Source: a virus
Virus record (IMG/VR): IMGVR_UViG_3300033145_000471
Location: 1 to 61,273 of that record
Length of the DNA: 61,273 bases
Direction: 5' to 3' (one strand)
Under the pieces are notes generated by a model. That model was not told the origin of the DNA. It searched no databases and saw only the letters and a program-made list of their open reading frames with translations. Below are positions 30,217 to 59,934 of the stretch, one piece after another (position 1 is the first letter of the stretch; every line of letters begins with the position of its first letter). A program made the translations under genes and the position numbers.

Positions 30217-30486
30217 ATGAGGTCGATCAACTTAACCGAATATCGGGAAACTGCGCCAGACGGCGAATGGTATATCGGCACAGCACGTGGAGTGTTTCTT
30301 GTCGCTTGGGTTGATGCCCAATACTGGGTTGGTACGAAAGAAGGAAACGGTGGATTCGGCCAGTCGTTTTGTTGCCACGGAAATGACACGCTGTATTCGA
30401 CTCGCAACGCGGCGCAACAAGCCCACGATGATTACACAAAAAAACTGAACGATTATATGAAATCTTTTGAAACGGCACAATCCTGA
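30217..30486 (+). CDS. Hypothetical protein with own promoter
   Basis: 89 aa from ATG 30217 behind AAGGAG; a longer reading from 30133 would start in the promoter. Aromatic-rich (GEWYIGTARGVFLVAWVDAQYW) with a helical C-terminus. It has its own promoter and a terminator upstream, so it may be expressed in the lysogen. Not recognised. Confidence 0.6.
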   Translation: MRSINLTEYRETAPDGEWYIGTARGVFLVAWVDAQYWVGTKEGNGGFGQSFCCHGNDTLYSTRNAAQQAHDDYTKKLNDYMKSFETAQS

Positions 30487-30644
30487 GGGGCGGGGCGAAA
30501 GCCCTGTTAAAGGACACGGCGAGTCCCAAGTCTCGCCAATCTTTGAAAATCAAATAACGCGCCCCGTGCAAACGAAATCGAAAGTGACGGGACAACAGGA
30601 CGCGCACCCCGGCGGATGTTGTAGAAGTACAGCAAGGAGAAAGA
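30487..30644 (+). other. Structured intergenic stretch with boxA-like string
   Basis: 158 bases without a gene. GGCGAG (30528-30533 area) can pair with CTCGCC shortly after, and a boxA-like CTTTGAAAAT is at 30541-30550. GGGGCGGGGCG at the start can pair with CGCGCCCC near 30558-30566. It may be a leader for 30645-31349. Confidence 0.35.
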
Positions 30645-32671: not shown

Positions 32672-32747
32672 TGGTGCCCCCGACCGGATTCGAACCGATA
32701 GTACAGGCTTAGCGGGCCCATGTTCTATCCAGTTGAACTACGAGGGC
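32672..32747 (-). tRNA. tRNA with unusual anticodon loop (GCT, C33)
   Basis: A full 76-nt cloverleaf with encoded CCA: acceptor GCCCTCG/CGGGGGC, D stem GTTC/GAAC, anticodon stem TGGGC/GCCTG, T arm ATCGG-TTCGAAT-CCGGT. Acceptor and D arm look like tRNA-Arg. The anticodon loop reads CCGCTAA, giving GCT (Ser codons) with C instead of U at position 33, and the variable arm is short. Either a derived tRNA or a decoy. It lies upstream of the integrase in the same transcript. Confidence 0.75.
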
Positions 32748-33984: not shown

Positions 33985-34437
33985 TCACCCAGTTCGTATA
34001 TTTTTTTTCGCGTCCCCCGATTCCTCTGCGCAGACGCGGACCAACTCCCGTATAGCTCGCAACTTCTCGCCCCGCACATTTATTAATAGCCCCGCTATTT
34101 CATGCCGTATTTTCTCATCGGAGCGAGCATGTTCCCCGGGCGTACCTGCCGAGATAGTGCCCTGTAACGGTAGATCGCGCGTAGGGTCAAGCTCGTGATC
34201 GCGGACGGATTCAGGTTCAGAAGGAGGCCCCTTATAGAAATCAGATACCGACACGCCCAGCGCACGGGCTATCCTCTTGACCGTCAAGTTCCCCGCATTT
34301 CTATTCCCGGTCATGATTTTAGACATGTATGAAGGGGATATGCCTGCATCACGAGCAAGATCAACTTGTTTATAAGACTTTCCCATATGAGAAGTTTTAT
34401 AGCCAAGCCATTTACTTATTAGTCCTATAATATCCAT
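33985..34437 (-). CDS. Phage repressor (XRE helix-turn-helix)
   Basis: 150 aa. SYKQVDLARDAGISPSYMSKIM is an XRE helix-turn-helix, followed by NLTVKRIARALGVSVSDF. A linker with TISAGTPGE follows, but no S24 peptidase domain or Ser/Lys dyad is evident, so induction may not use RecA-type self-cleavage. It is divergent from the early promoter with operator-like sites between, as for a CI-type lysogeny repressor. Confidence 0.8.
   Translation of the reverse strand: MDIIGLISKWLGYKTSHMGKSYKQVDLARDAGISPSYMSKIMTGNRNAGNLTVKRIARALGVSVSDFYKGPPSEPESVRDHELDPTRDLPLQGTISAGTPGEHARSDEKIRHEIAGLLINVRGEKLRAIRELVRVCAEESGDAKKNIRTG
34385..34401. promoter_or_regulatory. Operator-like site O1
   Basis: ATATGAGAAGTTTTATA, inside the repressor 5' coding region. 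It shares the ATATGAGA-n2-TTTATA layout with 34502-34518. Confidence 0.5.
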
Positions 34438-34486: not shown

Positions 34487-34515
34487 TTGACAAGATAGCG
34501 CATATGAGATATCTT
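34487..34515 (+). promoter_or_regulatory. Rightward early promoter with operator over -10
   Basis: TTGACA (34487-34492), 17-base spacer, TATCTT (34510-34515). The near-palindrome ATATGAGATATCTTATA (34502-34518) covers the -10 box, so the repressor would block this promoter. A leftward promoter overlaps it: TTGTCA, 17 bases, TATACA on the minus strand. Confidence 0.75.
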
Positions 34516-34534
34516 ATACCCCAGATGAACAACA

Positions 34535-34551
34535 GCTCTTTGAAAACTGAA
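34535..34551 (+). promoter_or_regulatory. boxA-like antitermination element
   Basis: GCTCTTTGAAAACTGAA closely resembles boxA of rRNA leaders and phage nut sites, where NusB and S10 bind the nascent RNA. It lies about 15-20 bases after the expected early transcript start and directly before the structured units. Confidence 0.6.
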
Positions 34552-34664
34552 AAGGCGGGTTTTCCTTCCCGGTGGCGGTCGTGCCGCTCTTCCCTCCGCA
34601 ACATGCTGGCATGGAGGACCAACACCAACACGCAACAGACCGGAGAGATCACACCCGCCTTTTC
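34549..34664 (+). ncRNA. Tandem structured RNA unit 1
   Basis: Closed by a perfect 12-bp stem, GAAAAGGCGGGT with ACCCGCCTTTTC. Inside: hairpin GCGG-tcgtg-CCGC, then hairpin CCTCC...GGAGG with a GCAACATGCTGGCAT loop, then a single-stranded AC-rich piece (ACCAACACCAACACG). T residues after the right arm give it terminator character. Confidence 0.8.
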
Positions 34665-34680
34665 AATAACGACGAAGAAA

Positions 34681-34789
34681 GGGGCGGGTTTTTCCTGCCG
34701 ATGGCGCTCGAAGCGCTCGTTCGCCCTCGTGTGCAAGCACGGGCGACCAATGCCGACACACTACTGATCGACAGGGTCACACCCGCCCC
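34681..34789 (+). ncRNA. Tandem structured RNA unit 2
   Basis: Closed by GGGGCGGGT with ACCCGCCCC (9 bp). Inside: GCGCTCGAAGCGC hairpin, a TCGCCC...GGGCGA hairpin with a CGTG/CACG inner stem, and the AC-rich ACCAATGCCGACACAC piece aligned to the same part of units 1 and 3. Confidence 0.8.
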
Positions 34790-34802
34790 GCTCAACGCGG
34801 TT

Positions 34803-34924
34803 TTATAAGAGGCGGTGATCACCGTCAACGGCGCTCGAAGCGCTCTAGCCCCCGCAATGTGCCAGTATGGGGGGGCCACTACCGACACGCTGCAGGTCGG
34901 CGGCGAAACAACCGCCTCTTATAA
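34803..34924 (+). ncRNA. Tandem structured RNA unit 3
   Basis: Closed by a perfect 14-bp stem, TTATAAGAGGCGGT with ACCGCCTCTTATAA. Inside: the same GCGCTCGAAGCGC hairpin as unit 2, a GCCCCC...GGGGGC hairpin with a GCAATGTGCCAGTAT loop related to unit 1, and the ACTACCGACACG piece. The early regulator gene starts 54 bases later. Confidence 0.8.
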
Positions 34925-34978
34925 TCAATATAACCGCACAACACACATCAGTCAATATAATTGACAAAGGTTGTAAAA

Positions 34979-35209
34979 ATGGAAACACATACCAACAGAG
35001 TACTCAAGGGCAGAATCGTTACCATGTTTGGCTCTCAGGATGCGTTCGCCCTTGCTGTCGGCGTCAACAATTCTTTCGTCTCTCGCGTGGTCAACGGGTA
35101 TCGAACGCTGACGGACGAGAAGAAGAAGGAATGGGCTGCGAAGCTCGACTGTGAAGTGGGGGAGATATTCCCTGATTCTCTGGTGGCGGACGTGTCACAG
35201 GCACGGTAG
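34979..35209 (+). CDS. Early HTH regulator (Cro-like)
   Basis: 76 aa from ATG 34979 behind AAAGG (TTG 34961 is an alternative). IVTMFGSQDAFALAVGVNNSFVSRVVNG is an XRE-type helix-turn-helix. First gene of the rightward early operon, so likely the Cro counterpart of the repressor at 33985-34437. Confidence 0.75.
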   Translation: METHTNRVLKGRIVTMFGSQDAFALAVGVNNSFVSRVVNGYRTLTDEKKKEWAAKLDCEVGEIFPDSLVADVSQAR

Positions 35210-35234
35210 TACCCCCTTTTCATTTACATAGATC

Positions 35235-35298
35235 GTGCGGGGGCCGGGTTTTCTCTTTCGCGGAACCACCCGAATCTCCTTTCCCCGGCCTCCTGCAC
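35235..35298 (+). other. Long imperfect hairpin before the 35318 gene
   Basis: GTGCGGGGGCCGGG (35235-35248) can pair with CCCCGGCCTCCTGCAC (35283-35298) with small bulges. It is the leader of the next regulator gene; attenuator or processing site are possible. Confidence 0.5.
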
Positions 35299-35881: not shown

Positions 35882-36346
35882 GTGTCGCACTCGACGTGGG
35901 AAGACAGTGATTGCCGGGTGATGCTCTACGGCCTGTTTCATCTGGCTGAGGACGGCCCAACGGTCAGGGACACCGCCCGCGCACTTGGAATGTCCGAAAG
36001 CCTGCTTTACAAAATCCTCACCGGCGAGAGACCGCCTGCCCCTGAACTGTTCCCCGCGCTTTTCAACATTACCGGCAAACTCGACATCATCAACTGGTTC
36101 GTAGCGCGGTGCAAAGGTCTCGCGCTGATAGACACCGCCGCTGCCGAGACGAACGGCGATATACGCGATGAAATCGAGGCGCTTGTCGTCGAAGTCGGCA
36201 GGGTAGCCGAACGCCGCAAGGCCGCATATGCAGATGGGCGCATCACCGGCTTGGAGCGCAAGGGTATGCTCGACGCCGCACAAGAGCTGTTCACGACGGC
36301 GAAGCAGCTCATTGAGGAAATCAAGGAGATCGGCTGTGAAGACTGA
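35882..36346 (+). CDS. CII/CP76-like phage regulatory protein
   Basis: 154 aa, GTG start behind AAGGGGG. The first 70 residues hold a helix-turn-helix (TVRDTARALGMSESLLYKIL) with the layout of phage CII-type (CP76-like) regulators, followed by a long helical C-terminus (IRDEIEALVVEVGRVAERR). Probably controls early gene or lysogeny choice; subtype uncertain. Confidence 0.55.
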   Translation: MSHSTWEDSDCRVMLYGLFHLAEDGPTVRDTARALGMSESLLYKILTGERPPAPELFPALFNITGKLDIINWFVARCKGLALIDTAAAETNGDIRDEIEALVVEVGRVAERRKAAYADGRITGLERKGMLDAAQELFTTAKQLIEEIKEIGCED

Positions 36347-44274: not shown

Positions 44275-44537
44275 TGGAGATCAGGATTAGCAAAACTGCG
44301 GCACAGGACATGGGTGACGCGTATTTCGCAAAGGGTGCCCACGATGAAGTTGTCGTATCAGCATATGGCAACGCGACTATAATGCTCAAATGGAGTGAAG
44401 AAAAAATGCCGCCGTTCGCAACGGTGCATCTTGACCGTGCTACCGTATGGGAGATTGTGACAGGGATGATTCGGCGCAACTGCGGCAAGGTGCTGAGGGC
44501 GGCCATGAAAGAATTTATGGGCAAGGAGGACGATTGA
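44274..44537 (+). CDS. Hypothetical protein
   Basis: 87 aa (MEIRISKTAAQDMGD...), mixed alpha/beta. Its stop overlaps the ATG of the Gp37/Gp68-like gene. No family recognised. Confidence 0.5.
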   Translation: MEIRISKTAAQDMGDAYFAKGAHDEVVVSAYGNATIMLKWSEEKMPPFATVHLDRATVWEIVTGMIRRNCGKVLRAAMKEFMGKEDD

Positions 44538-45406
44538 TGCCGACTGATATACCATACACCGATGAAACATGGAACCCGTGGCAGGGCTGCCACAAGGTCA
44601 GCCCGGGCTGCGACAACTGCTACATGCACCGGGACAAGAAACGCTTCGGACAGGACCCGACGAAGGTCATCCGCTCTGCCGACCGCACGTTCTACGCTCC
44701 GATGAAATGGGCAGATGGCAAGTTCATCATGGTCCCGTCATGGAGCGATTTTTTCATCGAGGAGGCTGATCCCTGGCACATTGATGCAATGGAAATCATG
44801 GCTGAATGCCCACAACACACATTTCTGGTGTTTACAAAACGCCCCGAACGAGCCATCGAGTGTATCTATGGGAAGACTGGCGGATGGTATCTCGGTGGTG
44901 GCGATTATCTGCCGAATGTCTGGTGGATTGTTACGTGTGAGAATCAAGAGATGGCCGATAAGCGTATTCCAGAATTGTTCAAACTCCGAGAAAAGTCTTC
45001 GGGCTGGCCCGTACTCGGTGTGAGCTACGAACCGGCGCTGGGGCCTGTGGATTTCGCGTATGTGTCGGCAACAGAAATGATGCTGAAAGGCATACAAGAG
45101 CCACGGGGTATTGACTGGCTCATCATGGGCGGCGAGAGTGGCCCGAACGCAAGGCCGATGAATCCGAACTGGGCGCGGGCGGTGCGTGACCAGTGCATCG
45201 CAGCGGGTGTGCCTTACTGGTTCAAGCAGTGGGGGGAGTGGGCGCCAATTCACGAAATGCGGGCTAATGAGCCAGGCATCAAGGGAAAATTATGGCACAA
45301 TTTCGACCCAGACACTACTGTCTGTAGAATCGGGAAAAAAGCCGCAGGTAATCTCCTTGACGGCCAGCGATGGGAGCAGAGGCCAGAGGTGACCGATGCG
45401 GAATAA
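44537..45406 (+). CDS. Phage Gp37/Gp68 family protein (DUF5131-like)
   Basis: 289 aa from ATG 44537. ETWNPWQGCHKVSPGCDNCY is the family hallmark, with C-x5-C-x2-C cysteines reminiscent of metal or radical-SAM-type clusters. TFLVFTKRPERA, then GVSYEPALGPV, a WLIMGGESGPNARP segment and VPYWFKQWGEW follow the family. Widespread in phages; the reaction is not established. Confidence 0.85.
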   Translation: MPTDIPYTDETWNPWQGCHKVSPGCDNCYMHRDKKRFGQDPTKVIRSADRTFYAPMKWADGKFIMVPSWSDFFIEEADPWHIDAMEIMAECPQHTFLVFTKRPERAIECIYGKTGGWYLGGGDYLPNVWWIVTCENQEMADKRIPELFKLREKSSGWPVLGVSYEPALGPVDFAYVSATEMMLKGIQEPRGIDWLIMGGESGPNARPMNPNWARAVRDQCIAAGVPYWFKQWGEWAPIHEMRANEPGIKGKLWHNFDPDTTVCRIGKKAAGNLLDGQRWEQRPEVTDAE

Positions 45407-52111: not shown

Positions 52112-52344
52112 AAATGAAAATCCGGGAACGAATATTTAAAAAAAGCGCCCCTCCTTTCAATGTGAACCCGCTGCCACCGAACGTCAAGCCGCCGAAACCG
52201 CCGCCGGCACCGCCAGAACCAAACAGGGGAAGTATAGTTTTTCGGATAACCAAACAGTCGCCGGGCACGGTAATAGTAAATGGCGAGGACGTGATAATAA
52301 TTCGCGGGATTTCTTTAAAAAGCTTGGAGGCAAACACTAAATGA
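52108..52344 (+). CDS. Proline-rich small protein
   Basis: 78 aa (start 52108 or 52114). A KPPKPPPAPPEPNRGS stretch separates a basic start from a small beta C-terminus (TVIVNGEDVIIIRG). Its stop overlaps the pseB start. Unknown. Confidence 0.5.
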   Translation: MKMKIRERIFKKSAPPFNVNPLPPNVKPPKPPPAPPEPNRGSIVFRITKQSPGTVIVNGEDVIIIRGISLKSLEANTK

Positions 52345-53297
52345 ACTGGCGCGACAAGACAATCCTTATCACCGGCGGCACGGGATCGTTCGGCAGGAAA
52401 TTCACCGAGGTCATGCTGAACGATTACCACCCCCGCAAGCTCATCATCCTGAGCCGCGACGAAGAAAAACAGCGAGCCATGAAAGACACGTACGATCATC
52501 CGACGCTGCGGTTTTTCATCGGCGACATTCGTGAGCGGCGGCGTATGTTCCGCGCTTTTGAAGGTGTTGACATCGTCGTACATGCCGCCGCTCTCAAACA
52601 AGTGCCGTCATGCGAGTACAACCCACTCGAAGCCGTCCGCACGAACATCGACGGCGCGGCAAACATCATTGAGGCCGCACTTGACCAGAAGGTAGAGCGT
52701 CTTATCGCCATCAGCACCGACAAGGCCGTGAACCCGGTCAATCTCTATGGCGGGACCAAGCTGGTCATGGAAAAGCTATTCGTTCAGGCCAACTCATACA
52801 AGGGCAGACGCGACATTGCATTCTCATGCACCCGCTACGGTAACGTTATCGGCAGCAGGGGCAGTATCGTCCCGGTCTTTCAGAAACAACGCGAGACAGG
52901 GCGGCTCACAATCACCGACAAGCGCATGACGCGGTTCTGGCTGACGCTCGATGAGGGCGTGCGGTTCGTTATTCACTGTCTCGAAATCATGCGCGGCGGC
53001 GAAATATTCGTGCCGAAAATTCCGAGTATGCGGATTATCGACCTTGCCGATTCAATCGCGCCGGAATGCGAGCAAATAGTTACCGGCATACGGCCGGGCG
53101 AGAAATTGCACGAGGTGCTTATTTCACGCGATGAGGCACGGCACACGCTCGAATTTGATGATATGTTTGTTGTCAAGCCGCTGTTTCGCTGGTGGGGTGG
53201 GAACGACAGTCAGGCCGGCGAGCCGGTGCCGGAAGGATTCGAGTATCGGAGCGACACAAATCCTCAAAAGGTGATGGGAGAAATGTTAAATGTCTGA
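52341..53297 (+). CDS. pseB: UDP-GlcNAc 4,6-dehydratase (PseB-like)
   Basis: 318 aa short-chain dehydrogenase. NADP motif TGGTGSFG (11-18), HAAALKQVP (81-89), STDKA with Lys128 and YGGTK with Tyr136/Lys140 follow PseB/FlaA1. PseB makes the 4-keto-6-deoxy sugar from UDP-GlcNAc, the first step to pseudaminic acid. It is the first gene of the sugar block, coupled to the aminotransferase by overlap. Confidence 0.9.
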   Translation: MNWRDKTILITGGTGSFGRKFTEVMLNDYHPRKLIILSRDEEKQRAMKDTYDHPTLRFFIGDIRERRRMFRAFEGVDIVVHAAALKQVPSCEYNPLEAVRTNIDGAANIIEAALDQKVERLIAISTDKAVNPVNLYGGTKLVMEKLFVQANSYKGRRDIAFSCTRYGNVIGSRGSIVPVFQKQRETGRLTITDKRMTRFWLTLDEGVRFVIHCLEIMRGGEIFVPKIPSMRIIDLADSIAPECEQIVTGIRPGEKLHEVLISRDEARHTLEFDDMFVVKPLFRWWGGNDSQAGEPVPEGFEYRSDTNPQKVMGEMLNV

Positions 53298-54369
53298 AAA
53301 GCTCGCAATAAACGGTGGTAAACCAGTCCGCAGTGAATTCTTACCATACGCCCGTCAGCAGATTGACAATGCGGATGTTGTGTATATGAATCAGGCGGTG
53401 CGGTCTGACAGGATTACTACCGGCGAATGGGTGGAGAAGTATGAAAACGCTTTTGCCGAATACCACGGTGCGAAATATGGTATAGCGGTGAGTTCGGGGA
53501 CGGCGGCGCTGATGATAGTATACAAGCTGTTATTTTGGGGCCATTTCAGGCATTTAATCATATCACCCTTGACTTTCACGGCATCAGTGAACGTGGCATG
53601 GGGTTTATGCAGTATAGAATTCAGGGACATCAACAGGAATACGCTGTTTATAGAAAACGATTCATGTCCGAACGAACACGCTGTAACCGTTTTGATTGAT
53701 TACGCCGGTCACAAAGATGAGCGCTTTTGTACCGTTCGCGACGCCTGCCACTCAATAGGGATGCCGTTTGGTAATTCCACAATCTCCTGCTACAGCACCC
53801 ATGCCGTCAAAAACATCACTACCGGCGAGGGCGGAATGATATTAACAAACGATGAAATCATCGCCGGGCAATGCCGCCGCTTCCGCGACCACGGGCGTGA
53901 TGCTACAGGCGACATGGTGGAATTCGGCTATAACTTCCGCCTGCCGGACATCAATTGCGCTCTCGGCTGGTCACAACTACAGAAACTTGGCGGCTGGATT
54001 CAGAGGCGCCGCGAGATCGCACAGACGTACAAGGACGCTTTCGCCGATGTGGACGGGATAACGCTTCCGGCGATACCACTCGACGAATCGTCCTGGCACC
54101 TGTTCCCGATACTGGTAGAGAACCGCGACAGGGTCAGGGTGGCATTAGAGGCGGAGAACATCGGCACGCAGATACATTACAGGCCGGTGTATTACCACAC
54201 GTACTATCAAAATCTTGGGTATAAGCGGGGGCTGTGCCCGAACGCGGAGTGGATATACGAACGGATTCTGTCGATACCGCTGTTCCCGGCGATGGCTGAC
54301 GATGACGTGCAGGACGTGATAACGGCGGTGAAGAAGGTTGTTCAATTTTACAGGGAGACAATCAGGTGA
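53290..54369 (+). CDS. pseC: PLP aminotransferase (PseC/DegT-like)
   Basis: 359 aa. VSSGTAALMI binds the cofactor phosphate, DACHS (151-155) the ring, and HAVKNITTG places Lys174 as the Schiff base. PseC adds the 4-amino group to the PseB product. It overlaps pseB by 8 bases. A small gene and a regulator separate it from the rest of the block. Confidence 0.88.
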   Translation: MSEKLAINGGKPVRSEFLPYARQQIDNADVVYMNQAVRSDRITTGEWVEKYENAFAEYHGAKYGIAVSSGTAALMIVYKLLFWGHFRHLIISPLTFTASVNVAWGLCSIEFRDINRNTLFIENDSCPNEHAVTVLIDYAGHKDERFCTVRDACHSIGMPFGNSTISCYSTHAVKNITTGEGGMILTNDEIIAGQCRRFRDHGRDATGDMVEFGYNFRLPDINCALGWSQLQKLGGWIQRRREIAQTYKDAFADVDGITLPAIPLDESSWHLFPILVENRDRVRVALEAENIGTQIHYRPVYYHTYYQNLGYKRGLCPNAEWIYERILSIPLFPAMADDDVQDVITAVKKVVQFYRETIR

Positions 54370-54617
54370 AAGTTACAGTAGAGGTTAAGGTTTATGCTGC
54401 GAATAAAAATATTTTAAGACCAGTGGCCAAACCCATGATACTTGAATCATGGGGTAACACAAATCTTACAAGAGTTGTTAGAATTAGCCTGCCAGACGGT
54501 ATAAGTTTGTGTGCGGACATTGATGAATTGTATAACGCACTTTATGCAATAGATAAGGCGGTCAATGAAGGGGGAAATGATGATGCAAGGCTGGCTCCGG
54601 CCCAAGAATGCGGCTGA
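54366..54617 (+). CDS. Hypothetical small protein
   Basis: 83 aa, GTG start, AT rich. TVEVKVYAANKNILRPVAKPM then LPDGISLCADIDELYNAL. No family recognised; not an obvious sugar enzyme. Confidence 0.45.
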   Translation: MKVTVEVKVYAANKNILRPVAKPMILESWGNTNLTRVVRISLPDGISLCADIDELYNALYAIDKAVNEGGNDDARLAPAQECG

Positions 54618-54804
54618 GTACTGCAACGTGTCAACCCGCACGATACACGAGTGGATGAAACTCGGACTTCGACATTCAAAAATGCGGGGCGCCGTGCTTA
54701 TCAAGGTCGAATGGATTGATGAATTTCTGGAACAGCGCGAACAGAAATCAGATGCCGACACGATTGTCGATGAAGTCGTGAAGGATATCAGAAAGCGAGG
54801 GTAG
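54577..54804 (+). CDS. HTH_17 excisionase-like protein
   Basis: 75 aa (start at one of three ATGs 54577-54583). LRPKNAAEYCNVSTRTIHEWMKLGLRH is a winged HT-H motif of the excisionase/AlpA type. Typical phage early gene interleaved in the sugar block. Confidence 0.65.
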   Translation: MMMQGWLRPKNAAEYCNVSTRTIHEWMKLGLRHSKMRGAVLIKVEWIDEFLEQREQKSDADTIVDEVVKDIRKRG

Positions 54805-54807
54805 TCT

Positions 54808-55342
54808 ATGACGGAAATTCCTGAAAACAAATATCTCGGCAAGCTATGTAAGCGCGGGCACGACTGGAACGGGACGGGGAAGAGTTTACGGTATAAAAGT
54901 GGGGCGTGTGTTAAATGCACGGCAGAAACGTACAGGAAATGGCGCAAAAACAATCCAGAGAAAGTGAAAGAAAACGATAGGAGGTGGTACAGAAACAATC
55001 CAGAGAAAGTGAAAGAAAGGAGCAAAAGGTGGAAAAGAAACAATCCAGAGAAAGTGAAAGAAAGTGAAAGAAAACGATAGGAGGTGGTACAGAAACAATC
55101 CAGAGAAAGTGAGGGAAAAAGCAATAAAATGGCGCAAAAACAATCCAGAGAAAATGAAAGAAAACAATAGGAGGCGGTGCAAGGGAAACCGAGAAAGACT
55201 AAAAGATTGTTATATTAAGCGGCTTCTGTGTGGCGGCGAACACTCATTACGCGCCAAAGACATCCCGCCAGAACTCATTGAAATAAAGCGCGCCCAACTC
55301 AAACTACACCGTTACTTAAGGGAGGATTCAAATGTCTCATAA
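54808..55342 (+). pseudogene. Repeat-rich phage protein split by 10-bp duplication
   Basis: The two halves (54808-55080 and 55064-55342) form one protein: KLCKRGHDWNGTGKSLRYKSG start, five NNPEKVKE repeats, and a DIPPELIEIKRAQLKLHR end that is common in phage proteins. In the third repeat GTGAAAGAAA is present twice (55049-55068), so the frame shifts and stops at TAG 55078. Slippage could restore it, so this may be phase variable. Confidence 0.7.
54949..55160 (+). repeat. Five tandem coding repeats
   Basis: ACAATCCAGAGAAA recurs five times at about 41-49 base spacing, each coding NNPEK. Such repeats recombine and slip easily, which explains the 10-bp duplication. Confidence 0.85.
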
Positions 55343-55565
55343 GCTCATTACACCCGAAGGCAAGGAAATCACCTGCATTGAAAACATCAATGATTTAAGG
55401 ATATCGCTCTGTGAAACCTACGACCAAGTGCGCGCCGGTGTCATTGAAAGGGCGCAAGCGGAAGCCCTGTCAAATGTGGCGGGCAAAATCATATCGACCC
55501 TCAAGGTTGAACTGGTGAACGCCAAACTCAAAAACGAAACACCCCAAATCGGATTTATTGAATAA
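55332..55565 (+). CDS. Small phage accessory protein
   Basis: 77 aa. ISLCETYDQVRAGVIERAQAEALSN is typical of a short phage helical protein; no function known. Overlaps the next start by one base. Confidence 0.55.
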   Translation: MSHKLITPEGKEITCIENINDLRISLCETYDQVRAGVIERAQAEALSNVAGKIISTLKVELVNAKLKNETPQIGFIE

Positions 55566-56323
55566 TGACCGGTGCAATCATACAGGCATCCATGCTGTCA
55601 AAGCGGCTGCCCGGCAAGTCGCTCATGGACATCGGCGGCAAGTCCATGCTTACCCGCATTGTAGAGCGAGTCAGGCGGGCGAAAAGCGTGGGCAAGATCG
55701 TTGTGGCAACGACGAAACACAAGAAAGACGATGCGATAGCCGAAGAATGCGGACGGCTGAACATTGGATTTATCAGAGGTGTTCGCAAACAGGTGTTGCA
55801 TGACTACTATGCGGCGGCTCACGTGTTCAGCATCGACCCGGCCATCCGCATCACCGGCGACTGTCCGCTTATCGACCCGTATGTGATCGACGCCATTGTC
55901 AAGGTGTTCATGTCCGACGAGTACGACTACGTGTCGAATATCCCGAACCTGTTTGGCCGCACCCTGCCGCGCGGTCTTGACGTGGAGGTCATATCGTTCA
56001 CGACGCTGAAATGGCTGCATGAGAACATCACGCCCGAAAAGCTCGGTGACGAGTTCCACAAGGATTACGTCGAGCACGTCACGTTTTATATCCGCGAGAA
56101 TCCCGACAAATTCAAGGCGGCAATGGTCAAGAACAGCTTTGCGATGTACCGGTGGACGGTCGACCGACAGAATGAACTCGACTTTGTGAGGAAGATATAT
56201 GACGAGATGGGCGACAGTGAATTCACGTGGATTGATGTGATAAGATTTCTGAACGATCACCCGGAGTTGATTATAACCGAAACCGCCGAAAGCCAGGCGA
56301 CCGTGAAAGGAGGCGTGTGGTGA
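55565..56323 (+). CDS. SpsF/PseF-like nucleotidyltransferase
   Basis: 252 aa. AIIQASMLSKRLPGKSL carries the nucleotide-binding signature, followed by RITGDCPLIDP (metal site) and a PRGLDVEVIS segment. SpsF-type enzymes activate acidic sugars; in this block the likely job is CMP activation of the nonulosonic acid. Classical PseF/NeuA share the fold but not all motifs. Confidence 0.75.
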   Translation: MTGAIIQASMLSKRLPGKSLMDIGGKSMLTRIVERVRRAKSVGKIVVATTKHKKDDAIAEECGRLNIGFIRGVRKQVLHDYYAAAHVFSIDPAIRITGDCPLIDPYVIDAIVKVFMSDEYDYVSNIPNLFGRTLPRGLDVEVISFTTLKWLHENITPEKLGDEFHKDYVEHVTFYIRENPDKFKAAMVKNSFAMYRWTVDRQNELDFVRKIYDEMGDSEFTWIDVIRFLNDHPELIITETAESQATVKGGVW

Positions 56324-56991
56324 AAATAGCAGTTTTCATGTCTCTCGACACCGAAAGCAAAGCATACGCTATCAAAATATCCCGGTATTTATGCGATTGC
56401 CCGGGCATAGAAATCATAGGGCAACATACTTACGCACCCTACACTGCCGAACTGCAATCATACCATTACGACATCGGCGTCTCGGTCGGTTATAACCACA
56501 TTTTCAAGCCCGAGCACATTGCCCTGTTCCCGCACGGCATTATCAACCTGCACCCGTCACTTTTGCCGTATAACCGGGGTGCAATGCCGAACGTATGGAG
56601 CATCGTAGATGGCACACCGGCGGGCGCGACGCTGCATTACATTGACGAGGGAATCGATACTGGCGACATCATCGCACAACGGCACGTGCCTGTCGAGAGT
56701 ACCGATACAGGCGAAACGCTCTATCACAAATGCATGGCGGCGGGCGTGGAGTTGTTCAAGGAAACATGGCCGAAAATCATGGCGGGGAAGAACAGGAGGG
56801 TGAAGCAACCTGTTAGCCAACCCGCGCACAGAGCCAAAGACATCAATGATCTTGATGAAATTTCAAAGGGGCTGTTAATGAATATTCTCCGCGCCCGCAC
56901 ATTCCCGCCGCATGAATCGGCCTATTTTATCGACGACAACGGGCAAAAGGTGTTTGTCGAAGTCAAGCTGAGGAACGCCGATGAAAGATAA
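56317..56991 (+). CDS. Formyltransferase 1 (Fmt/ArnA-type)
   Basis: 225 aa at most (start GTG 56317 or 56320 behind GGAGG). LHPSLLPYNRGAMPNVWSI and HYIDEGIDTGDII contain the Asn-His-Asp catalytic set of 10-formyl-THF-dependent formyltransferases. It should formylate an amino group of a sugar. Overlaps the previous stop. Confidence 0.85.
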   Translation: MVKIAVFMSLDTESKAYAIKISRYLCDCPGIEIIGQHTYAPYTAELQSYHYDIGVSVGYNHIFKPEHIALFPHGIINLHPSLLPYNRGAMPNVWSIVDGTPAGATLHYIDEGIDTGDIIAQRHVPVESTDTGETLYHKCMAAGVELFKETWPKIMAGKNRRVKQPVSQPAHRAKDINDLDEISKGLLMNILRARTFPPHESAYFIDDNGQKVFVEVKLRNADER

Positions 56992-57661
56992 CACGTACAT
57001 CGTCTGCGGGTGTAAGCCGTGGTGCAGGAAAGTATTCCGGGATATGATAAGCGGCTTTTCAGGTAAGTGGTGGTATTGCGCCGATAAAACGAGCCTGGAA
57101 ATAGTATTAACCGACACGAAACCCCGCTATATCTTCTTCCTGCACTGGAACTGGAAAGTACCGCCCGAGATCACCGACAACTACGAATGCATCAATTTCC
57201 ACATGACCAGCCTACCATACGGTCGCGGCGGGTCACCGTTGCAGAACCTGATAGTGGGGATGGTGTATGCAACAGAGGTCACAGCCCATCGCATGACGCA
57301 GGAGATTGACGGCGGGCACATACTGTCTCAGCGCCCAATGCTCTTGCATGGAACCGCCGAGGAAATGTATCTCCAAGCCAACTATTTGATGGCGGCCATG
57401 ATTGACGAAATTATTCACGGGAAGTTCATCGAAAGGCCGCAAGCCGGTAAACCGGTCTATTTCAATCGCCGCACGCCCGAACAGTCTGAACTGCCCGAAA
57501 ATATGACGCTCCCCAGGGCATACGATTACATCCGCATGTTGGATGCCGAGACGTACCCGAAAGCGTTCATCCAGCTTGGCAACCTGCGGCTGGAGTTCAG
57601 CCACGCCTGCCGGTACACGGACAGGGTCGAGGCGCATGTGACAATTACGGAGAAACCATGA
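56981..57661 (+). CDS. Formyltransferase-like protein 2
   Basis: 226 aa. NFHMTSLPYGRGGSPLQNLI and TQEIDGGHIL match the formyltransferase core (His in FHMT; the final Asp is in EIDGG). The C-terminal 70 residues resemble the second domain of Fmt-like enzymes. Two copies suggest formylation at two positions or a split activity. Confidence 0.75.
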   Translation: MKDNTYIVCGCKPWCRKVFRDMISGFSGKWWYCADKTSLEIVLTDTKPRYIFFLHWNWKVPPEITDNYECINFHMTSLPYGRGGSPLQNLIVGMVYATEVTAHRMTQEIDGGHILSQRPMLLHGTAEEMYLQANYLMAAMIDEIIHGKFIERPQAGKPVYFNRRTPEQSELPENMTLPRAYDYIRMLDAETYPKAFIQLGNLRLEFSHACRYTDRVEAHVTITEKP

Positions 57662-58248
57662 CACGCCAAGAGAAAATCAACAGGATGCTCATGCTGAAAT
57701 TCGAGCACTCATACCGCGTCGCGCAGAACTGCAGGGCCATTGCGGAGAGCATCGGTCTGTCGCAAGAGGATATTATGCGGCTGATGTGTGCCGGGTACTT
57801 TCACGACATCGGGTATTATGACCTGATAAGACACGGCAATTACAGGAACCCAAGACACGCAGAACACGGGGCATGGATAATATACTCAGGGGGAATAGGG
57901 GGCGTAATAAACAGAGGCGAATATGGGACATTACACGCTGTCAGATACCACAATGTCAGTAAGCAGAAATTCGAGAGGTGCCGCACAGAATACCTCGCCA
58001 TTCTCCGCGACGCCGACAAACTCGACGTATTCCGTATCACAAAGCAGCTTATCGACGACGGGCGGATAGAGGAACACTGCCGGGAAATGTTTGACACGAC
58101 CCCGGAAGACTACTGCCGCGATCTGCTGTCATGGCTCGATGATATAAACTACGATTACACGAGGCGGGAAATCGAAGAAATGAATGTCATATCGAAACTG
58201 GAGGGGGTAGCGAATGAAGGTCTTGGTAGTAGCGGCACACCCCGATGA
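57658..58248 (+). CDS. HD-domain phosphohydrolase
   Basis: 196 aa. FEHSYRVAQNC, FHDIGYY, VRYHN and LRDADKLDVF give the H...HD...H...D metal ligands of HD/HDIG hydrolases. The substrate is unknown; in this block it might remove phosphate or UDP from an intermediate. Overlaps the PIG-L gene by 35 bases. Confidence 0.8.
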   Translation: MTRQEKINRMLMLKFEHSYRVAQNCRAIAESIGLSQEDIMRLMCAGYFHDIGYYDLIRHGNYRNPRHAEHGAWIIYSGGIGGVINRGEYGTLHAVRYHNVSKQKFERCRTEYLAILRDADKLDVFRITKQLIDDGRIEEHCREMFDTTPEDYCRDLLSWLDDINYDYTRREIEEMNVISKLEGVANEGLGSSGTPR

Positions 58249-58891
58249 CGAAGTTCTCGGCTGCGGCGGCACAATGGCAAAACACGCCGCCCAGGGCGAT
58301 GAAGTCTACGTGGTGCTCATGAGCGAAGCCCTTACCGCCCGGAACGTGCCGGACAATCCCGAATATCTGCACAATCTTCGCCGCAACATGCAACGGGCGC
58401 GGGATGGTGCGCACAAAGCGCTTGGCGTCACTTCGACGAAACAGCACGTATTCCGCGGCAACAGATTTGACGGCGAGAACCTGCTGGACATCGTGAAAAC
58501 AATTGAATCGGATATTGAAAATATACAGCCGGAGGTTGTCTACATGCATCATCGCGACGACCTGAATATCGACCACAGAATAACGTTTCAGGCGGTGCTG
58601 ACGGCTACCCGGCCGATGCAGGGAACATCGGTAAAACGGTTGCTGTCTTTCTATGTGCCGTCATCGACCGAATGGGCATTCAACGGGACGTTCAAGCCGA
58701 ACGTATTTGAGGACATCACATCGGTATGGAACAGTTATTGGGGCAGCCTGCAATACTATGCCGCGGAAATGAGGCAGTCGCCACATCCACGATCTTACAA
58801 AGGGGTATCGGCGCTGAAAACACTGTGGGGCGAAACGATAGGTTGCGAGAAAGCCGAAGCGTTTGAGCTGGTATGGGAACGACGGCTCTGA
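58214..58891 (+). CDS. PIG-L/LmbE deacetylase
   Basis: 225 aa. VVAAHPDDEVLGCGGTMAKH is the zinc-binding start of the family; HHRDDLNIDHRITFQAV provides the second ligand region. It removes acetyl groups from sugars, which would expose an amine for the formyltransferases. 19 bases of overlap lead into the pseI region. Confidence 0.88.
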   Translation: MKVLVVAAHPDDEVLGCGGTMAKHAAQGDEVYVVLMSEALTARNVPDNPEYLHNLRRNMQRARDGAHKALGVTSTKQHVFRGNRFDGENLLDIVKTIESDIENIQPEVVYMHHRDDLNIDHRITFQAVLTATRPMQGTSVKRLLSFYVPSSTEWAFNGTFKPNVFEDITSVWNSYWGSLQYYAAEMRQSPHPRSYKGVSALKTLWGETIGCEKAEAFELVWERRL

Positions 58892-58926
58892 ATCAAAACG
58901 AAAAACTCACTTACGGAGACATAACA

Positions 58927-59934
58927 ATGCTTAAAGAAATCACCATAGATGGCCGCAAGATCGGCGACGGACACCCGATATACGTCATAGCCGAAATGTC
59001 GGCGAATCACAACCGGGAATTCAACACCGCCGCCCAGATAATAAAAGAGGCGAAAAAAGCCGGTGCGGATGCGGTCAAGCTCCAGACCTACACGCCGGAT
59101 ACCATGACCCTGAACTGCAACCGCGACGAATACCGTATCAAGAGCGGATTGTGGGCTGGACAGACATTGTACGAGCTGTACAAGAGCGCCTACATGCACT
59201 GGGAATGGCAGCCGGAACTGAAACGGATCGCCGACGATGAAGGTATCACCCTGTTCTCCACGCCATTTGACGTGACCGCCGTGGACTTCCTCGAAGAAAT
59301 GGACGTGCCCGCATACAAGGTGGCGTCATTCGAAGCCGCCGACATGGTGCTGATAAAGCGCATTATCGAGACGGGCAAGCCCGTGATTATATCGACTGGC
59401 ATGGTGAGTTTTGAAGAGCTGAGCGGCATCATATTGCCGGAATTTCCATATGATTATCCCGTGGCACTGCTCCACTGCGTCAGCGAATATCCGGCGAAAG
59501 ACGACTTTTTCTATTTGCCGATGGTGCTGAAAAAACTATATGGCCTGCCGACGGGCGTTTCGGATCACACGATAGCCGGGTGCAATATGTACGGCCTCTG
59601 CGAAATGGACATGCATATTTGGGAGCGCCACGTTTGTCTGGAAAAGGACAAGGCACATGTGCCGGACGGGGCATTCTCGTCTGATATGGGACAGCTTAAA
59701 AAGCGTATTCAAGAACTTCGAGGCCACGAAACACCCCGATCCTCAATCCAATTTGCCCGCTCGATCATCGCCACTGCCGACATCAAAAAGGGCGAACCGT
59801 TCACGACAGAGAACGTGAGGGCGCTTCGTCCCGGCTACGGACTGGAGCCATATAGAATGCCCGGTGTGCTGAGAAGCGTGGCGGCGACAGACATTGAACG
59901 GGGAACGCCGATAACATGGGGGGTGCTGGAATGA
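58927..59934 (+). CDS. pseI: Pseudaminic acid synthase-like (PseI/NeuB family)
   Basis: 335 aa from ATG 58927 behind CGGAGAC. IAEMSANHN (21-29), KLQTYTPDT (51-59), FSTPFD (110-115) and VPAYKVASFE are the NeuB-family signature; KLQTYTPDT is typical of PseI. The C-terminal 60 residues (IKKGEPFTTENVRALRPGYG) form the SAF antifreeze-like domain. It condenses the six-carbon sugar with PEP to a nonulosonic acid. Confidence 0.92.
   Translation: MLKEITIDGRKIGDGHPIYVIAEMSANHNREFNTAAQIIKEAKKAGADAVKLQTYTPDTMTLNCNRDEYRIKSGLWAGQTLYELYKSAYMHWEWQPELKRIADDEGITLFSTPFDVTAVDFLEEMDVPAYKVASFEAADMVLIKRIIETGKPVIISTGMVSFEELSGIILPEFPYDYPVALLHCVSEYPAKDDFFYLPMVLKKLYGLPTGVSDHTIAGCNMYGLCEMDMHIWERHVCLEKDKAHVPDGAFSSDMGQLKKRIQELRGHETPRSSIQFARSIIATADIKKGEPFTTENVRALRPGYGLEPYRMPGVLRSVAATDIERGTPITWGVLE

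Follow-up and report, generated by a model that had tools for sequence, protein, structure and literature searches.

The untranslated leader between the early rightward promoter and the cro gene of a temperate phage carries a boxA-like site followed by three tandem structured modules, an observation that is confirmed here and is better supported than it was in the first reading. The sequence analyzed, referred to below as the window, is the whole of IMG/VR virus record IMGVR_UViG_3300033145_000471, 61,273 nt in length. Under the favored explanation, to which we give a probability of about 40%, the element acts in cis as the leader of the transcript that runs rightward from the early promoter PR, and in it boxA would recruit the Nus complex and the modules would assist antitermination or folding. 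The boxA half of this explanation appears well founded, resting on a known mechanism; for the modules, we infer their role in the leader. Better folding of each unit on the minus strand, the lack of a terminator excess, the lack of a recognizable N-like gene and the lack of a homologous leader in the searched sets count against it.

Genome setting

As judged from its sequence, the phage is temperate and isolated. Structural genes lie at the left end of the window, and an integrase gene adjoins a tRNA gene. Close relatives of Cro were not found in IMG/VR, nor were those of CII, for which the phage collection also held none, and close relatives of the integrase were not found in the genome collection. 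A recombinase-like early gene has a single distant relative, and relatives of the terminase do exist. Serine tRNAs have a long variable arm; the tRNA gene directly before the integrase gene (32672-32747, minus strand; anticodon GCT, serine) lacks one, is just 76 nt long and is perhaps an altered attachment-site tRNA. Elsewhere in the phage, a nonulosonic acid cluster of the pseudaminic-acid type (52341-59934, plus strand) encodes PseB (equivalog level), a PseC-like aminotransferase, a cytidylyltransferase, a formyltransferase, a deacetylase-like protein and a PseI-like synthase, and perhaps leads to an altered surface sugar of the lysogen. The protein encoded at 44447-45403 (plus strand) is near the PADLOC candidate models PDC-M41B/PDC-M30B (E 2e-46) and shows a weak likeness to a radical SAM mobile pair protein.

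The leader sits in a CI/Cro/CII immunity region. Between the CI-like repressor gene (33985-34437, minus strand; HTH_3, phrog_4/phrog_8) and the start of cro at 34979 there is a non-coding gap of about 540 bp, which holds PR, boxA and the three tandem units. PR, a sigma-70-like promoter (TTGACA-17-TATCTT, 34487-34515, plus strand), agrees with the consensus at 10 of 12 positions, and its transcript is expected to start near 34522. The first gene behind the leader encodes a Cro-like HTH protein (34979-35209, plus strand; the open reading frame opens with TTG at 34961, and AAAGG lies upstream of the ATG at 34979), followed in the rightward early operon by an HTH_17 protein and a CII-like activator (35882-36346, plus strand; PF06892, phrog_101). 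Intrinsic terminators in the downstream early operon occur at the number expected by chance, with no excess. Between cro and the next gene there is a long-stem RNA-like element (35234-35298, plus strand; GUGCGGGGGCCGGG...CCCCGGCCUCCUGCAC; fold z = -3.1), which is unmatched by the covariance model of the modules.

A boxA of probable rRNA type

The original prediction placed a boxA-like string directly after the early promoter, and it is found there: boxA (GCTCTTTGAAAA, 34535-34546, plus strand) begins about 13 nt into the PR transcript, and the exact string CTCTTTGAAAA within it occurs only once in the window. The consensus GYTCTTTAANA is that of gamma-proteobacteria (PMC5725501), and GCTCTTTGAAAA differs from it at one position. 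Near-matches of CTCTTTGAAAACTGAA number eight in 28 genomes; two of them, both from Phycisphaerae, precede a 16S rRNA gene by about 320-340 nt and share its strand. Given these near-matches before 16S genes and the fit to the gamma-proteobacterial consensus, it is reasonable to identify the phage boxA as the rrn-leader form found in bacteria.

Architecture of the modules

The three units, which had been put at about 110-120 nt, measure 118, 109 and 122 nt, and are described here on the plus strand as the putative acting strand. Module 1 (34548-34665) consists of an outer stem P1 (34548-34560 with 34653-34665), an inner stem P2 (34565-34573 with 34639-34647), hairpins P3 (34575-34587) and P4 (34593-34617), and an AC-rich return strand (34618-34638). 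The same parts recur in module 2 (34681-34789; P1 34681-34689 with 34781-34789, P2 34694-34702 with 34767-34775, P3 34704-34716, P4 34722-34745, AC-rich strand 34746-34766) and in module 3 (34803-34924; P1 34803-34816 with 34911-34924, P2 34821-34829 with 34896-34904, P3 34831-34843, P4 34849-34874, AC-rich strand 34875-34895), with linkers of 13-15 nt between modules. Unsupervised RNAalifold folding recovers the P1-P2-P3-P4 order and leaves the AC-rich strand unpaired, in agreement with the constant order of inner hairpins and AC-rich piece noticed earlier.

The closing stems, predicted at 9-14 bp, are perfect over 13, 9 and 14 bp in modules 1, 2 and 3; the arms of 14 and 13 bp are the longest inverted repeats with a gap of 60-130 nt in the window, a fold-back at the contig end aside, and the maxima in 20 shuffles were 10-13. 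That fold-back, an inverted repeat of about 53 bp with a 17-nt loop at the contig start (1-53 versus 71-123), is probably a product of assembly or amplification, a real hairpin end being less likely. P2 has about nine positions, of which one or two are mismatched. P3 is a hairpin of 4-5 bp with a UCGNR loop (GCGG-UCGUG-CCGC or GCGC-UCGAA-GCGC), and the compensatory change reported in it, GCGG/CCGC in unit 1 versus GCGC/GCGC in units 2 and 3, is real (alignment pair 22-28). P4 is a two-part hairpin with a CNRG tetraloop, and its inner helix reads CAUG/CAUG in unit 1, UGUG/CACG in unit 2 and UGUG/UAUG, with three G-U pairs, in unit 3; the exchange of C-A..T-G for T-G..C-A around a TGC loop, as first described, is thus to be corrected to these inner-helix changes around the tetraloop. 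The AC-rich strand is 21 nt long with the common core CCRACAC. Fold z for the whole leader ranges from -4.9 to -6.8. No protein frame had been found to fit, and a coding explanation is indeed rejected because the unit cores begin at intervals of 129 and 127 nt, which are not both divisible by three, so that a reading frame could not recur from unit to unit.

Structural selection on the modules

In the three-copy alignment, 92% of cells pair, compared with 41-49% when partners are slid by 1-3 columns, and 8 of the 26 pairs are changed on both sides; none of 500 shuffles matched the observed pairing, double changes or covariation score. With P1 left out, the pair columns diverge by 39% between copies and 94% of cells still pair. 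In a neutral simulation, also excluding P1, of divergence from a fully paired ancestor, 67% pairing is expected at this divergence, and the observed 94% was reached in none of 20,000 runs. Among the individual helices, support is good for P2 and P4; P3 shows too little variation to be judged. The structure was chosen on the same three sequences used for testing, all of them paralogues in one genome, and all covariation comes from these paralogues since no relatives were found. The pattern of changes indicates that the modules are under structural selection, their pairs being kept by compensating mutations.

Search for related RNAs

The covariance model built from the units (R1) recovers them at 96-112 bits and finds nothing else in the window. 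Matches above chance were absent from pattern-selected IMG/VR contigs and from 13 terminase-related virus records plus 28 genomes, and the HK022 genome gave no match up to E=10. In seven phylum samples (247, 345, 345, 285, 294, 209 and 201 genomes, about 1,930 altogether), single matches of 25-30 bits occurred in about the number expected by chance; those inspected were rejected as GC-rich, inside an open reading frame or poorly aligned. These large runs used strict pre-filters, which distant relatives could escape. Matches to a DNA pattern in IMG/VR were, among the matches listed, within genes or due to chance, as judged from five that were read, from 20 more that were checked and from scoring with R1. 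In the leader, no family of Rfam release 15 reached its gathering score, and between 34400 and 35000, at E up to 10, only unrelated families appeared, whose scores fell far short of gathering (E about 1 at best). Elsewhere in the window, Rfam detects only tRNA and a type-P5 twister ribozyme (30482-30535, plus strand; 50.3 bits, above the gathering score), the latter near the end of the late region.

A covariance-model search for further homologues with covariation, as had been proposed, thus found none; the claim of a family is weakened by this and not refuted, since the searches were broad and far from exhaustive. As originally suggested, the modules appear to form an RNA family not yet described, which is supported by the lack of an Rfam match, the covariation among the three copies and the CI/Cro context.

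Which strand acts

The original prediction considered the plus strand alone, a reading that has to be qualified: the other strand folds at least as well, and a promoter-like site lies at the edge of unit 3. That site (TTGACT-17-TATATT, 34927-34955, minus strand) would place a start at about 34920, where module 3 has its outer end. A 15-bp palindrome (GTCAATATAATTGAC, 34950-34965), a possible operator, covers its -35 element just before the cro start. It could be hypothesized that the functional RNA runs leftward from this start through modules 3, 2 and 1, either as an antisense RNA of about 375 nt ending at a U-rich tract behind module 1 (CCCGCC-UUUUCAGUUUUC) or as the leader of an establishment-type repressor transcript that continues into cI, and that it counteracts the PR transcript or affects how cI is expressed. 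The minus strand folds better in all three units, by MFE (-55.6/-62.2/-64.2 versus -42.8/-54.4/-58.4 on plus), by per-unit z (-4.1/-3.8/-5.6 versus -2.7/-2.3/-5.0) and in the consensus fold (43 pairs and -52 kcal/mol versus 33 pairs and -43 kcal/mol). The extra pairs arise where the P4 segment folds with the GU-rich complement of the AC strand into a long hairpin, which takes up a segment that is otherwise unpaired and has 49 of 53 cells paired, more than a neutral expectation that allows for composition (P about 0.01). However, folds of equal stability arise in all three units once the GU-rich segment is shuffled; composition alone thus explains the gain, and the hairpin is discounted as strong evidence for the leftward strand.

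Other observations also speak against a leftward RNA. PR and boxA read rightward, and the position of the modules between PR and cro means that they must be transcribed rightward whenever PR fires. P4 pairs in 24 of 24 cells on plus versus 20 of 24 on minus, and P4b is intact on plus only. Helices shared by the two strands are uninformative on this point, their signals being almost strand-symmetric. The plus transcript up to the cro start folds with z = -6.8, compared with -5.8 for the leftward transcript. When the AC segment is shuffled on the plus strand, the fold is no less stable in 579 of 600 cases for unit 1 and in 548 of 600 for unit 2, as if the segment were kept open in these two units; the effect is absent in unit 3. 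Altogether, the plus strand is favored at odds of roughly two to one, and a functional leftward RNA, the foremost rival, is less likely. If the leftward strand were active, the lysis-lysogeny switch would include a structured RNA of antisense type.

Proposed function and alternatives

Loading of the antitermination complex in the rRNA operons of E. coli requires boxA, which is also sufficient for it (PMC10250234). If the phage element is a PR leader, host NusB-S10 with NusA, NusG and SuhB would load on boxA as in those operons, and the loaded complex would make RNA polymerase resistant to Rho along the long early operon. The three modules would fold while emerging from the polymerase; they may stabilize or extend the modified complex, through a put-like contact with polymerase or the docking of a protein on the AC-rich strand, or may keep the untranslated leader compact and beyond the reach of Rho and RNases. 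Since intrinsic terminators are not in excess, only Rho resistance would be needed and boxA alone might suffice. That the leader constitutes a third early antiterminator of phages beside nut and put, in which an rRNA-type boxA and three tandem four-helix modules of an undescribed RNA family together make the polymerase processive, is an unlikely extension. As a less certain addition, the boxA region might pair with the cro Shine-Dalgarno sequence and couple boxA occupancy to cro translation. In the full transcript, 34532-34541 is predicted to pair with 34966-34974, a strength reached by 5.7% of shuffles (p about 0.06), which is only suggestive.

It has also to be considered that the modules could be excised by RNase III cuts in their closing stems as three stable small RNAs, acting in trans on a host protein or RNA, for example as decoys, with the leader position serving early expression only. 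Each module is self-contained, with its own closing stem and short linkers, and rRNA operons have a similar arrangement, with boxA ahead of RNAs enclosed by stems (PMC10250234). However, the modules have no known target, no homologues were found in the searched sets, and at 9-14 bp the closing stems are on the short side for RNase III to cut efficiently, making this quite unlikely. A 5' UTR switch, in which the boxA segment pairs with the cro Shine-Dalgarno sequence and Nus binding or a module ligand governs how cro is translated and, through it, the choice between lysis and lysogeny, would draw on the predicted pairing above; it is very improbable, given the frequency of equally strong pairings in shuffles and a single sequence that provides no covariation. 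An element acting as DNA (replication start, cruciform or recombination site) or a neutral duplication remnant could account for the perfectly palindromic closing stems and the near strand symmetry of the common helices but is barely credible, as a remnant would not retain 94% of pairs at 39% divergence, and the internal multi-helix order, the unpaired AC strand and the location directly behind a promoter and boxA suit RNA.

To our knowledge, HK022 and a few relatives are the only phages in which antitermination by RNA alone, or led by RNA, is known in detail. If the PR-leader explanation is true, an rRNA-type boxA with conserved tandem RNA modules would show phages borrowing the machinery of ribosomal transcription in a further way, and the leader would offer a ready reporter system.

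Comparison with known systems

The suggestion of a put- or nut-like antitermination leader stands in part: boxA and the position fit, and the antitermination reading is plausible, but the architecture is not that of put, no N-like gene is recognized and terminators are not in excess. HK022 put works via the zinc-binding domain of beta' and needs no protein factors. Like HK022 putL and putR, the phage element is a structured RNA located in cis in an early-operon leader of lambdoid type, and it may act without protein. However, put consists of about 70 nt with two stem-loops (PMC9378689), whereas the phage modules have 109-122 nt and four helices and come in three tandem copies with a boxA, and R1 has no match in the HK022 genome; by architecture, the leader is not a put site.

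The lambda nut site combines boxA and boxB with the arginine-rich N protein, boxB being a 15-nt hairpin of 5 bp with a purine (GNRA-like) pentaloop. The phage leader shares with it a boxA in the early leader and hairpins downstream, but there is no boxB-type hairpin by boxA, the next element being the 13-bp P1 stem. The short P3 hairpin, with its UCGNR loop, lies deep inside a multi-helix module, and P4 has a CNRG loop. A search for an N-like gene found one weak Arg-rich start of a reading frame and none that was convincing. The leader is not a classical nut site.

A boxA is also present in a known leader of protein-coding mRNA, but there it helps to repress its own gene, and tandem modules are absent. 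There is also a resemblance to rRNA-operon leaders (NusB/NusE/NusA/NusG/SuhB, e.g. E. coli rrn), in which boxA likewise follows shortly after the promoter from which a long transcript starts and precedes structured RNA within leader-trailer type stems; in the phage, the operon is an early one, three small paralogous modules take the place of rRNA, and Nus binding is putative. Altogether, the phage leader is likely a variant of the boxA-type leader that carries an unclassified RNA.
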